This document shows, in pieces, positions 22,758 to 34,700 of a stretch of DNA of 64,000 nucleotides (positions within the stretch are counted from its first letter, which is position 1; each line of letters opens with the position of its first letter). The notes under the pieces were generated by a model. That model made no database searches, was not told the DNA's origin, and saw only the letters and a program-made list of their open reading frames with translations. Both the position numbers and the translations under genes were made by a program. The stretch comes from Schizochytrium sp. TIO01 (Eukaryota; Sar; Bigyra; Thraustochytrida; Thraustochytriidae), in contig SMSO01000005.1 of the NCBI GenBank assembly GCA_004764695.1, positions 223,501 to 287,500 of the forward strand. Reading direction: 5' to 3'.

Positions 22758-25700
22758 ATGTCTGACAATCCAAGTGTCGTGGAAGCGCTTCGTGACCTAC
22801 GGCAGGGTGCAACAAGCTTACGGTAGGTTCTCATCATCAAGTTTATTCATTTTATCGATTTAGATAAAGCTTCGTATATGACTAAGATGCCAGAGCATGA
22901 CACATGAAATGCTGAAACCCAAGCCAACCCAAAGCCAAGCTCGATGACTGACGTTCATGCTTGTATGCTTGCTCGCTTGCATGAGTTGCTTGCCATTATT
23001 CAATCAAATCAACAGTCTTCAATTTAACAAGATCGGCGATGAGGGCGCCAAGGCACTGGCTGCGGCGCTGGAAGAGAACCAGTCACTGACATCACTATCG
23101 TAAGTTGGTTGTCTGTCTTAGCACCTCGTGGAAAGGCTTGCTTGCTTGCTTGTATATGGATGGGGTTTGTTGCCTGGTTTTCTTGGTTGGTTGCTATTTC
23201 ATTCTATAGACTGGTTTACAGTGCTATCCTGCGCTATGCTTTGCTGCGGCGTGGTGGTCTGTGTTGGTTGGTGGTTTGTTTGCATGTTGCCTGCGAATGC
23301 TGGTTGGGATCGTCAGTTTCGACTGCGATTGTGTGTTTGAATCAAGATCCAACAATGCGCAAAATGCCAGAGCACGACACATGAAATGCTGAAACCCAAG
23401 CCAACCCAAAGCCAAGCTCGATGACTGACGTTCATGCATGTATGCTTGCTCGCTTGCATGAGTTGCTTGCCATTATTCAATCAAATCAACAGTCTTTCTC
23501 ACAACAACATCGGCTCAGAGGGTGCCAAGGCACTGGCTGCGGCGCTAAAAGAGAACCAGTCACTGACATCACTTGAGTACGTTGGTTGTCTGTCTTAGCA
23601 CCTCGTGGAAAGGCTTGCTTGCTTGCTTGTATATGGATGGGGCTTGTTGCCTGGTTTTCATGTTTGCTTGCTATTTCATTCTATAGACTGGTTTACCGTG
23701 CTATCCTGTGCTATGTTTTGCTGCGGGGTGGTGGTCTGTGTTGGTTGGTGGTTTGATTGCATGTTGCCTGCGAATGCTGGTTGGGATCGTCAGTTTCGAC
23801 TGCGATTGTGTGTTTGAATCAAGATCCAACAATGCGCAAAATGCCAGAGCACGACACATGAAATGCTGAAACCCAAGCCAACCCAAAGCCAAGCTCGATG
23901 ACTGACGTTCATGCATGTATGCTTGCTCGCTTGCATGAGTTGCTTGCCATAATTCAATCAAATGAACAGTCTTGGTTACAACACTATCGGGTCAGAGGGC
24001 GTCAAGGCACTGGCTGCGGCGCTGAAAGAGAACCAGTCACTGACATCACTTGTGTAAGTTGGTTGTCTGTCTTAGCACCTCGTTGAAAGGTTTGTTTGCT
24101 TGCTTGCTTGCTTGCTTGCTTGCTTGCTTGCTTGCTTGCTTGCTTGCTTGTATATGGATGGGGCTTGTTGCTTGGTTTTCTTGTTTGCTTGCTATTTCGT
24201 GCTATAGATCGGTTTACCGTGCTATCCTGTGCTATGCTTTGCTGCGGCGTGGTGGTCTGTGTTGGTTGGTGGTTTGTTTGCATGTAGCCTGCGAATGCTG
24301 GTTGGGATCGTCGGTTTCGACCGCAATTGTGTGTTTAAATCAAGCTCCAACAATGCGCAAGATGCCAGAGCACGACACATGAAATGCTGAAACCCAAGCC
24401 AAGCTCGATGACTGACGTTCATGCATGTATGCTTGCTCGCTTGCATGAGCTGCTTGCCATTATTCAATCAAATCAACAGTCTTGGAGTGAACAAGATCGG
24501 GTCAGAGGGCGCCAAGGCACTGGCTGCGGCGCTGAACGAGAACCAGTCACTGACATCTCTTGAGTAAGTTGGTTGTCTGTCTTAGCACCTCGTGGAAAGG
24601 TTTGCTTGCTTGCTTGCTTGCTTGCTTGCTTGCTTGCTTGCTTGCTTGCTTGCTTGCTTGCTTGCTTGCTTGCTTGCTTGCTTGCTTGCTTGCTTGCTTG
24701 CTTGCTTGCTTGCTTGCTTGCTTGCTTGCTTGCTTGCTTGCTTGTATATGGATGGGGCTTGTTGCTTGGTTTTCTTGTTTGCTTGCTATTTCGTGCTATA
24801 GATCGGTTTACCGTGCTATTCTGTGCTATGTGTTGCTGCGGCGTGGTGGTCTGTGTTGGTTGGTGATTTGTTTGCATGTTGCCTGCGAATGCTGGTTGGG
24901 ATCGACAGTTTCGACTGCGATTGTGTGTTAGAATCAAGATCTCACAATGCGCAAGATGCCAGAGCACGATACATGAAATGCTGAAACCCAAGCCAACCCA
25001 AAGCCAAGCTCGATGACTGACGTTCATGCATGTATGCTTGCTCGCTTGCATGAGTTGCTTGCCATAATTCAATCAAATGAACAGTCTTGGTTACAACACT
25101 ATCGGGTCAGAGGGCGCCAAGGCACTGGCTGCGGCGCTGAAAGAGAACCAGTCACTGACATCACTATCGTAAGTTGGTTGTCTGTCTGAGCACCTCGTGG
25201 AATGGCTTGCTTGCTTGCTTGTATATGGATGGGGCTTGTTGCCAAGTTTTTCTTGTTTGCTTGTTATTTCGTACTATAGATCGGTTTACCGTGCTATTCT
25301 GTGCTATGTGTTGCTGCGGCGTGGTGGTCTGTGTTGGTTGGTGGTTTGATTGCATGTTGCCTGCGAATGCTGGTTGGGATCATCAGTTTCGACTGCGATT
25401 GTGTGTTTGAATCAAGATCCAACAATGCGCAAAATGCCAGAGCACGACACATGAAATGCTGAAACCCAAGCCAACCCAAAGCCAAGCTCGATGACTGACG
25501 TTCATGCATGTATGCTTGCTCGCTTGCATGAGTTGCTTGCCATTATTCAATCAAATCAACAGTCTTTGTTACAACACTATCGGCTCAGAGGGCGCCAAGG
25601 CACTGGCTGCGGCGCTGAAAGAGAACCAGTCACTGACATCACTTGAGTACGTTGGTTGTCTGTCTTAGCACCTCGTGGAAAGGCTTGCTTGCTTGCTTGT

Positions 25701-31700: not shown

Positions 31701-34700
31701 AATGCTGGTTGGGATCGTCAGTTTCGACTGCGATTGTGTGTTTGAATCAAGATCCAACAATGCGCAAAATGCCAGAGCACGACACATGAAATGCTGAAAC
31801 CCAAGCCAACCCAAAGCCAAGCTCGATGACTGACGTTCATGCATGTATGCTTGCTCGCTTGCATGAGTTGCTTGCCATTATTCAATCAAATCAACAGTCT
31901 TTCTGACAACAACATCGGCTCAGATGGCGCCAAGGCACTGGCTGCGGCGCTGAAAGAGAACCAGTCACTGACGTCACTTGTGTAAGTTGGTTGTCTGTCT
32001 TAGCACCTCGTGGAAAGGCTTGCTTGCTTGCTTGTATATGGATGGGGCTTGTTGCCTGGTTTTCATGTTTGCTTGCTATTTCGTACTATAGACTGTTTTA
32101 CAGTGCTATCCTGCGCTATGCTTTGCTGCGGCGTGGTGGTCTGTGTTGGGTAGTGATTTGTTTGCATGTTGCCTGCGAATACTGGCTGGGATCGTCAGTT
32201 TCGACTGCGATTGTGTGTTTGAATCAAGATCTAACAATGCGCAAAATGCCAGAGCACGATACATGAAATGCTAAAACCCAAGCCAACCCAAAGCCAAGCT
32301 AGATGACTGACGTTCATGCATGTATGCTTGCTCGCTTGCATGAGTTGCTTGCCATTATTCAATCAAATCAACAGTCTTCGTTACAACAACATCAGCTCAG
32401 AGGGCGCCAAGGCACTAGCTGCGGCGCTGAAAGAGAACCAGTCACTGACATCACTTGAGTACGTTCTGTCTTAGCACGTCATGGAAAGGCTTGCTTGCTT
32501 GCTTGCTTGCTATTTCGTGCTATAGATCGGTTTACCGTGCTATCCTGTGCTATGTGTTGCTGCGGCGTGGTGGTCTGTGTGGGTTGGTGATTTGTTTGCA
32601 TGTTGCCTGCGAATGCTGGTTGGGATCGTCAGTTTCGACTGCGATTGTGTGTTTGAATCAAGATCCAACAATGCGCAAAATGCCAGAGCACGATACATGA
32701 AATGCCGAAACCCAAGCCAACCCAAAGCCAAGCTCGATGACTGACGGTCATGCATGTATGCTTGCTCGCTTGCATGAGTTGCTTGCCATTATTCAAACAA
32801 ATCAACAGTCTTTCTGACAACAACATCGGCGATGAGGGCGCCAAGGCACTGGCTGTGGCGCTGAAAGAGAACCAGTCACTGACATCACTATAGTAAGTTG
32901 GTTGTCTGTCTTAGCACCTCGTGGAAAGGCTTGCTTGCTTGCTTGTATATGGATGGGGCTTGTTGCCTGGTTTTCTTGTTTGCTTGTTATTTCGTACTAT
33001 AGACTGGTTTATCGTGCTATCCTGGGTTATGTTTTGCTGCGGCGTGGTGGTCTGTGTGGGTTGGTGGTTTGTTTGCATGTTGCCTGCGAATGCTGGTTGT
33101 GATCGTCAGTTTGGACTGCGATTGTGTGTTTGAATCAAGATCCAACAATGCGCAAAATGCCAGAGCACGACACATGAAATGCTGAAACCCAAGCCAACCC
33201 AAAGCCAAGCTCGATGACTGACGTTCATGCATGTATGCTTGCTCGCTTGCATGAGTTGCTTGCCATTATTCAATCAATACAACAGTCTTCGATCAAACAA
33301 CATCGGTTATGAGGTTCAGAATGAGATTTCGACATATTTAAAAAGAATTTAGGGCAACACTGCGGTATGGCGCAAAGCCGTTGAGGATGCAATTCATGGG
33401 AATGATGAGCATGCTTGGGGCCGAGCGAAACTGATGATCGTGGGACAGGGAGCTGCGGGAAAGACTTTCATCGTGCGGTCTCTGCTCGGTAGGCCTTAAG
33501 TAGCTGAGCATGTTTCGACGGAAGTTGCGGACGTACATCGGACTCGTGCGAAGGACTTTAAAGAGCTACCTGACGATGCTCAGGAATTTGACATGCAAGT
33601 TCGGAAAGCTGCGCTTCGTCGCATTCGCCCAGAAGCTGACGTAAAGCATAAAAGCATTCGAAGAAGCATTGCTCGCACGATCCGAAAATCTGCGAAGCGT
33701 GTCAGTAGTAGGTTGTCGGGAACACCTGCAAGCGGATCTGTGCCACGAGATGCTCCGGCAAGCGAGGAAGTTCTGACAAACGAAGATGAGATTGCCAGGC
33801 GTTTTGAGTTGACAAAAGACGATAAGAAAATGCTTCAAAAGGCCTCTGGTGTTGATGCATCTCTAGATTTTGATTTGAGCTTTACAATTTGGGACTACGG
33901 AGGTCAGGAGGTGTTTTATGCTCTACATCACATATTTCTTACCAATATGGGAATTTATCTCGTTGTTTTTGATATGCAGGAGCTCTTGAATGATCAGTCA
34001 AGATCTAACGCTGTTGAGTACTTGCGCTTCTGGCTGAACAGTATTCAACTCCATGCACCTGATTCACCAATTATAATGGTCGGAACCTACCTCGATAAGG
34101 TTAGAGATGAGAAAAGCCTCGACAAAATTGCACGAGTTCTACGGGAAGATGTTCGCATTGGAGATTACACAGGATGCCTAGTTTATAATCCCAACGGTCG
34201 ACCGTTTTACGAACTAGATAATAGTAGTCCTGATTTGAATCGCGCAGCGCAGTTACGCCAGGTAATTGTGGATGAAGCTATGAAACAAGATTACGTTAAG
34301 CAGAAAGTGCCTCTTGCCTGGCTAAAAGTACATGAGGATTTACTTCAGCAAAAAAAGTCATATCTTATGTATGATGATGTGGTCAATCTTGCCGCTCTGT
34401 ATGGTCGCAGCCACGAGGATGTGGATGAGATGTTACTCTACTTCCATACGCTTGGCGTTGTGGTTCACCTGTGTAGCACTGAGGCCCTGCAACGTGTGGT
34501 CATCTTGGAACCGCAGTGGCTTCTTGATAAGCTAGCTCGAGTTATCGCTGATGACATTCATGTACAGCAGATGTATCGAAATCGTGATTTGAGGAATGCA
34601 GGTGTGGATAAGGACTTTTATCGTCTGCGTCGCGATGCAATTGCAACACATAGTCTCCTTGAGTTTCTGTGGGAAGGTGAAGAAGTCGAATATCTTATTC

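Follow-up and report, generated by a model that had tools for sequence, protein, structure and literature searches.

Why should a gene of a single-celled stramenopile carry twenty-one leucine-rich repeats (LRRs), each on an exon of its own and all of one length and phase, and what would such an array do? This question is raised by a stretch of 64,000 nucleotides (nt) from Schizochytrium sp. TIO01 (GenBank assembly GCA_004764695.1, contig SMSO01000005.1, positions 223,501 to 287,500), referred to below as the window, in which an LRR-Roc-COR-TIR gene, here named locus A, occupies 22758-35797 of the forward strand. Locus A belongs to a system that extends over the whole genome and has two output domains: the arrays of family I end in Roc-COR-TIR, and those of the larger family II in a domain of about 110 residues. 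With a probability of roughly 0.55, we read the two families together as a germline recognition repertoire shaped by short-tract gene conversion and diversifying selection, and locus A as a broken copy of one of its LRR-Roc-COR-TIR receptors.

Exon architecture of locus A

Locus A consists of the following parts:

22758-22822, + strand: cap exon, ATG, 21 codons and 2 nt (MSDNPSVVEALRDLRQGATSL..), with the phase-2 donor GTAGGT; similar cap exons occur in the genes on contigs C30 and C27
23016-32892, + strand: 21 exons with one LRR each, all 84 nt long and phase 2-2; start positions 23016, 23493, 23970, 24480, 25085, 25563, 26040, 26513, 27056, 27533, 28013 (exons 1-11) and 28490, 28967, 29448, 29981, 30451, 30927, 31405, 31898, 32375, 32809 (exons 12-21)
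33286-35797, + strand: last exon, C-terminal LRR cap, Roc, COR and TIR, with two nonsense codons; Pfam Roc (part), COR-A and TIR_2 on 33500-35794

The original prediction of a modular LRR-ROCO locus, with every LRR on a separate open exon that is entered and left in phase 2, holds throughout: all 21 exons are exactly 84 nt long and phase-symmetric, contain no in-frame stop, and lie between a CAG acceptor and the donor GTAAGT (17 exons) or GTACGT (four exons). Each encodes one 28-residue repeat of the ribonuclease-inhibitor type (LxxNxIGxEGAKALAAALKENQSLTSL) and a residue split over the exon junction; the cap exon (65 nt) and the last exon (from 33286) join them in phase 2 as well. The consensus sites and the common phase suggest that these exons are spliced together. 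The introns between them are mostly 392-397 nt long (12 of 20; range 350-521), as had been said, but they are not almost identical, the mean pairwise difference being 7.7%. Four of them, the longest of the 20, contain long (TTGC)n microsatellites (24092-24150, 24602-24744, 26633-26714 and 29568-29630), and similar runs also lie beside some family-II arrays.

The exon array is not a product of chance, because a pattern made of the 3' end of the LRR exon and its donor matches the genome (64.06 Mb in 37 contigs) exactly at 452 sites, compared with two for the reversed pattern, and because codons 2, 3 and 5 of the 21 exons hold no stop, where column shuffling expects 3.8 (P 0.006).

Such arrays might serve combinatorial alternative splicing and yield many isoforms per locus, as in the ROCO genes of brown algae (PMC11378527; here and below, published systems are described from excerpts of the papers cited). 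The exons are phase-symmetric multiples of three, any subset of them stays in frame, and two 87-nt exons found in the C30 gene hold the phase too. This symmetry is, however, equally expected from tandem duplication of one phase-2 unit, and the splice sites are uniform, with no sign of regulated choice; we consider this use of the arrays quite unlikely.

Broken copies and an intact paralogue

A TIR output domain had been predicted for locus A, and a TIR part is indeed present in the last exon, but this copy is broken, and it is a paralogue on contig C30 that is intact. The features that bear on this point are:

33350-33352, + strand: in-frame TAG in the last exon of locus A
33497-33499, + strand: in-frame TAA in the same exon, just past the P-loop region of Roc
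39757-39821, + strand: cap exon of locus B (MSNHPTVVDALRDLRQGATSL..)
40015-41981, + strand: five LRR exons of locus B, 84 nt, phase 2-2
42376-44892, + strand: last exon of locus B, Roc-COR open to 44464, TGA at 44465, TIR part 44503-44889 in another frame
19328-20691, + strand: locus C, a truncated Roc-COR-TIR remnant with frame breaks and stops (C4:242828-244191)

The TAG and the TAA interrupt the Roc reading frame of locus A at positions that encode E and Y in both locus B and the C30 gene. The latter (about 8.20-8.21 Mb) has a cap exon, 15 LRR exons, thirteen of 84 nt and two of 87 nt, and an open Roc-COR-TIR last exon, with a predicted product of 1280 residues. The last exons of locus A and the C30 gene are 96.6% identical, with a non-synonymous rate (dN) of 0.026 and a synonymous rate (dS) of 0.063. 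The LRR-exon scan of the window found no LRR exon adjoining locus C. At a matching site just before the TIR part, loci B (TGA, 44465) and C (TAA) have a stop and locus A and the C30 gene a leucine. An altered genetic code was considered as the cause of the stops and rejected, TAG, TAA and TGA having no consistent meaning between the copies.

The state of locus A bears on the possibility that its array is inert repeat sequence or an assembly artefact. The two nonsense codons would fit this, as would the general difficulty of assembling tandem repeats and the number of framework residue changes per exon, 1.10 in locus A against 0.08 in the C30 gene, though the arrays on contigs C32 and C27 have 1.10 and 1.22 and other family-II arrays 0.90-1.28. 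Since the C32 array, whose last exon is open, reaches the same value as locus A, and the others similar ones, the framework changes alone are no mark of decay. Against an inert or artefactual array stand the 21 open LRR exons where shuffling expects stops, the 7.7% difference between the introns of the units, and the presence of like arrays on many contigs together with an intact gene on C30; we regard it as extremely improbable.

A genome-wide system with two outputs

COR-A matches were found at 17 places in the genome, 15 of them above the cut-off, and at 13 of these 15 a TIR_2 match lies just downstream on the same strand (compared by hand). A second type of last exon, encoding the domain of about 110 residues, ends three further arrays (at the end of C30, on C13 and on C3). 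This domain has 54 genomic matches, corresponding to 52 places after two split pairs are merged. Thirteen of the places belong to contigs shorter than 300 kb; the other 39 belong to contigs longer than 1 Mb, and 22 of these lie within 100 kb of a contig end, where 4.5% would be expected. Nineteen of the match rows flag an internal stop, but these flags do not count intact copies: in the C3 copy the flagged stop is the natural end of the domain. No Pfam family was assigned to it, the best being DUF896 at an E-value of 0.08, below the cut-off, and no relatives appeared among 85 candidates in a protein search (no PDB search was made).

Among the matches listed for the LRR-exon pattern (100 of the 452, contigs C3 to C10, the last in part), 12 multi-hit arrays were counted by hand, and each of them continues on its own strand into the domain of about 110 residues (eight arrays) or Roc-COR (four arrays). 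The design of one LRR per phase-2 exon was also observed in the C30, C32, C13 and C27 arrays. The C32 array, with introns of 301-312 nt, joins exons of the family-II type to an open Roc-COR-TIR frame of 854 residues, which implies that arrays and outputs have been recombined.

A 50-residue TIR fragment of the locus A type, 98% identical, lies at C36:472906-473055, and no LRR exon was found in the surrounding 10 kb (forward strand scanned). Telomere repeats of the TTAGG type, (CCTAA)n, open four of the 20 contig starts read (L063, L069, L074 and L076).

Domains and predicted function

Pfam finds Roc and COR-A above the cut-off in locus A (from 33500) and locus B, and Roc-COR is open in the C30 gene; the best PDB match for Roc-COR is LRRK2. 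The repeat stretches of the C30 gene and of family II are assigned to LRR_6; among solved structures, the C30 repeats are closest to NLRP14 and, lower in the ranking, to ribonuclease inhibitor. For the TIR profile, the best solved matches are hydrolases of nicotinamide adenine dinucleotide (NAD+) such as tir-1 and SARM1 (best E-value 1.7e-8). In 32 of 36 aligned rows (two of the others have gaps and two another residue) a glutamate aligns with that of WVHKEL in tir-1, which we take to be the catalytic residue. The predicted output of the TIR domain is NAD+ cleavage. Named ROCO relatives, in a protein search covering proteins to about 1,200 residues, come mostly from Hondaea fermentalgiana, with Mucochytrium, which places the genome among or near the labyrinthulomycetes; the Roc-COR-TIR rows of Hondaea are about 30-50% identical, the best match overall 52%, and the best protein matches beyond the window's own have 52% and 59% identity. 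Rfam gave nothing at the gathering threshold.

The same domains bear on what is recognized. The recognition of prey, of a mate or of self, or a family of adhesion or scaffold proteins of like architecture, would agree with the fact that the larger family II ends in a domain for which Pfam and the protein search found no relative, and varied LRR surfaces fit the recognition of any partner. Family I, however, ends in a TIR with the glutamate of NADase type, and a TIR NADase output is typical of defence and cell-death systems; a non-immune use therefore appears rather improbable to us.

Variation is concentrated in the predicted contact codons

To describe where the LRR exons differ, we compared 117 LRR exons, all 84 nt long, that belong to eight arrays (A 21, B 5, C30a 13, C30tel 18, C13a 20, C13b 21, C32 10, C27 9), leaving out the two 87-nt exons, the more diverged arrays C6 (11 exons) and C32b (six exons), and the array pair of contigs C14 and C31. 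Across the eight arrays the difference amounts to 40-68% at codons 2-3, 2-10% in the introns and 0.7-6% at the first and second positions of framework codons; the corresponding values are.547,.019 and.007 for C30,.583,.077 and.046 for A,.619,.021 and.060 for C32, and.676,.024 and.033 for C27. A comparison of 11 C30 exons position by position located the variation only at exon nt 5-10, 16, 23-25, 73 and 82-84. The intron ends beside these exons vary little, except for upstream mismatches that seem to come mostly from single units (18% steps) and are at least partly unaligned length differences.

The variable patches are codons 2, 3, 5 and 8 and the exon-junction codon. Codons 2, 3 and 5 and the junction probably correspond to exposed strand residues, the predicted contact face of the LRR arc, and codon 8 lies just past the strand. 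On this assignment, the phase-2 intron would cut the recognition strand itself, so that each strand draws its contacts from two exons. Codons 2, 3 and 5 contain no stop in any of the 117 exons, where column shuffling expects 9.2 in family I and 9.9 in exons of the family-II type.

Possible exchange of contact variants

In family I, codon 8 is TCA or GAT throughout (39 of 39 exons); in the family-II type it is TCA or GAC in 76 of 78 exons. Its two states are unlike at each of the three positions, and intermediates are almost absent. Linkage is strong between codons 2 and 3 (z 7.8 and 11.1), but this pair shows hardly any linkage with codon 8, at a distance of about 12 nt (z 1.1 and 1.5), or with the junction (z 0.5 and 1.5). 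Contact-site patches assort independently inside one exon, over about 10-15 nt. This modifies the original prediction, in which whole exons were the units of shuffling: their phase symmetry would allow it, but patches assort within the exon, and exons of locus A with a common codon 2-3 hexamer are not closer in their introns, or barely so, as is also the case in C30.

None of the eight distinct codon 2-3 hexamers of the thirteen 84-nt exons of C30 recurs among the 14 of locus A; one hexamer of locus A recurs in the 87-nt exons of C30. An exchange of such variants across the two exon families was also considered, and none is visible at codon 8, aspartate being GAT in 17 of 17 cases in family I and GAC in 29 of 29 in the family-II type; one codon 2-3 hexamer is common to both. 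Within a locus the mean intron distance can be small (C30a.020, C32.019, C27.024). The number of LRR exons differs between paralogues (21, 15 and 5) and is equal in the near-identical C14/C31 pair of this one assembly.

The two arrays of this pair are 99.1% identical over 5972 bp, with nine exons alike and in the same order and no contact-site difference in any of the nine, and 27 of the 36 mismatches fall within one stretch of about 150 bp at the end of exon 3 and in its intron. The C14 copy of this stretch is most like unit 7 of its own array (three differences, against 22 outside; at least six for the other units tested), and the simplest reading is a homogenising conversion in C14. Roc-like fragments of identical score adjoin the two arrays (C14:80269-81393 and C31:34610-35734), and contig C14 may be an alternative haplotype or a duplicate of the C31 end.

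A dedicated process, such as targeted mutation, template copying or programmed rearrangement, could instead rewrite the contact patches, possibly in somatic lines. It would account for patches near saturation only a few nucleotides away from introns that differ by 2% in C30 and C32, for their free assortment within the exon, and for third positions that are variable too. A rate about 28 times that of the introns would, however, predict several changes in the C14/C31 pair (hand arithmetic on one pair), whose contact patches are kept in nine of nine exons with the order unchanged; and the states of codon 8, three nucleotides apart with few intermediates, point to old variants rather than fresh mutation. 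This one pair speaks against contact-site hypermutation or frequent scrambling; hypermutation is held unlikely, and we judge a dedicated process as a whole very unlikely.

A proposed germline recognition repertoire

The reading that we prefer can be outlined as follows. Each exon would give one LRR; its last two nucleotides, with the first of the next exon, would specify a single contact residue, and further ones would come from codons 2, 3 and 5 of the downstream exon. Tandem duplication and short-tract gene conversion would hold introns and exon framework alike and reassort old contact variants, and selection would maintain the diversity of the contact sites. Intact members would be cytosolic sensors in which the LRR arc binds a ligand, Roc-COR relays the signal as a GTPase, and the TIR domain cleaves NAD+, leading to defence signalling or cell death, as the domains and the conserved glutamate suggest.

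Several observations weigh against this reading. In C13b, units with the same hexamer are closer in their introns (.044 compared with.076), which implies that whole-unit duplication also acts beside exchange below the exon scale; both appear to occur. The introns do not generally group by locus: the distance within A (.077) exceeds that between A and C30a (.057), and the distance within C30tel (.046) exceeds that between C30tel and C32 (.036). Exchange between loci would give this pattern, but recent spread of copies without ongoing conversion would give it as well. Each C30 hexamer is 1-3 nt from the nearest hexamer of locus A. The C31 version of the 150-bp stretch has its next genomic match at 82%, which makes the direction and nature of the event uncertain, and a clustered change in C31 is the alternative to conversion in C14. 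In the variable codons, third positions are as variable as first and second ones; since they are saturated, dN/dS is not clean and gives no proof of selection. The framework is not uniform everywhere, with 0.9-1.3 residue changes per exon in five other arrays and 0.08 only in C30. A role in immunity draws only on the TIR domain and the LRRs, and prey, mate or self recognition would look alike.

The value of the system lies in its genome-wide scale, its two outputs, the intron placement in the recognition strand and the evidence of sub-exon exchange. Framework and contact codons contrast so sharply that the maintenance of a diverse repertoire becomes a testable question, and many labyrinthulomycetes can be cultured.

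Other features of the window

Two regions outside the ROCO loci were noted:

503-4409 and 6800-10403, - strand: tandem pair of long cysteine-rich open frames, mutually similar; one of them has a 21-bp tandem repeat (2307-2568) of PTQSPTP type, the other does not
52340-55405: one open reading frame joining FAD-dependent (geranylgeranyl-reductase-like), flavodoxin and P450-reductase-like domains; its named relatives include bacteria and a few eukaryotes

Comparison with known systems

A literature search, mostly outside subscription journals, found no published description of arrays of this kind in any labyrinthulomycete. The Roc-COR-TIR part is shared by Hondaea fermentalgiana and other members of that group, but among proteins to about 1,200 residues their LRR part is short, absent or replaced by WD40. 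An 84-bp LRR exon may also exist in animal NLRC genes, although a literature search listed no paper on it; the zinc-finger arrays of PRDM9 are a further possible analogy.

The LRR-ROCO genes of brown algae (Ectocarpus, Saccharina) resemble locus A in general design, as had been predicted: they encode LRR-Roc-COR proteins with one LRR per phase-2 exon in tandem arrays, four concave-face sites are under positive selection, alternative splicing occurs, and LRR-only sequences may be a reservoir (PMC11378527). Their repeat, however, is 72 bp and 23 residues long (LxxLxxLxxLxLxxNxL), whereas the labyrinthulomycete one has 84 nt and 28 residues and is of the ribonuclease-inhibitor type, and the system described here has a C-terminal TIR and a second, more numerous output domain. 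Because repeat length and class differ, locus A resembles the brown-algal family without being a member of it. The array had moreover been called very long, which does not stand beside up to 49 tandem LRRs in Ectocarpus (PMC11378527) and up to 51 such exons in Tetrahymena thermophila (PMC6564038).

Tetrahymena offers the second parallel, with tens of thousands of LRR exons of a single length, phase-2 introns, a junction residue and ectopic recombination; the exons are concentrated in subtelomeric and pericentromeric regions, and in the authors' proposal arrays of fixed-length phase-2 LRR exons may have a single origin, in that ciliate (PMC6564038). Its exons measure exactly 90 bp, in contrast to 84 nt here, with two of 87 nt in C30; the main text of that paper does not contain the term "positive selection" and has "gene conversion" once, and its excerpts do not mention Roc-COR-TIR. 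The system described here would place the design in a third lineage, with another exon length, other outputs and, compared with brown algae, another LRR class, as a repeated solution to study. It is a tentative and on the whole unlikely proposal that a single-celled stramenopile reached the phase-2 design of one LRR per exon separately because an intron that cuts the recognition strand would allow recombination to assemble every contact surface out of two exons. More than 450 exons would then form one pool of contact variants, and sub-exon conversion of about 150 bp, possibly with splicing, would yield a combinatorial recognition repertoire with a TIR and a second output.

The third parallel concerns the mode of variation. 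The HNWD genes of Podospora, among them het-d and het-e, have near-identical tandem repeats that undergo concerted evolution both inside a locus and across loci, and in each WD repeat four contact codons are diversified (PMC1805685, PMC4986451); positive selection on conserved repeats extends to TPR and ANK in the NOD-like receptors (NLRs) of fungi, which according to the excerpts have no LRRs (PMC4986451). The HNWD repeats are of the WD40 type, on NACHT proteins (10 genes with 69 repeats), and the excerpts describe no layout with a single repeat per exon; similar repeats that vary at a few contact codons, as in the HNWD mode, were found here as well. The labyrinthulomycete system works like those of brown algae, Tetrahymena and Podospora, and fits the size definition of neither exon family.

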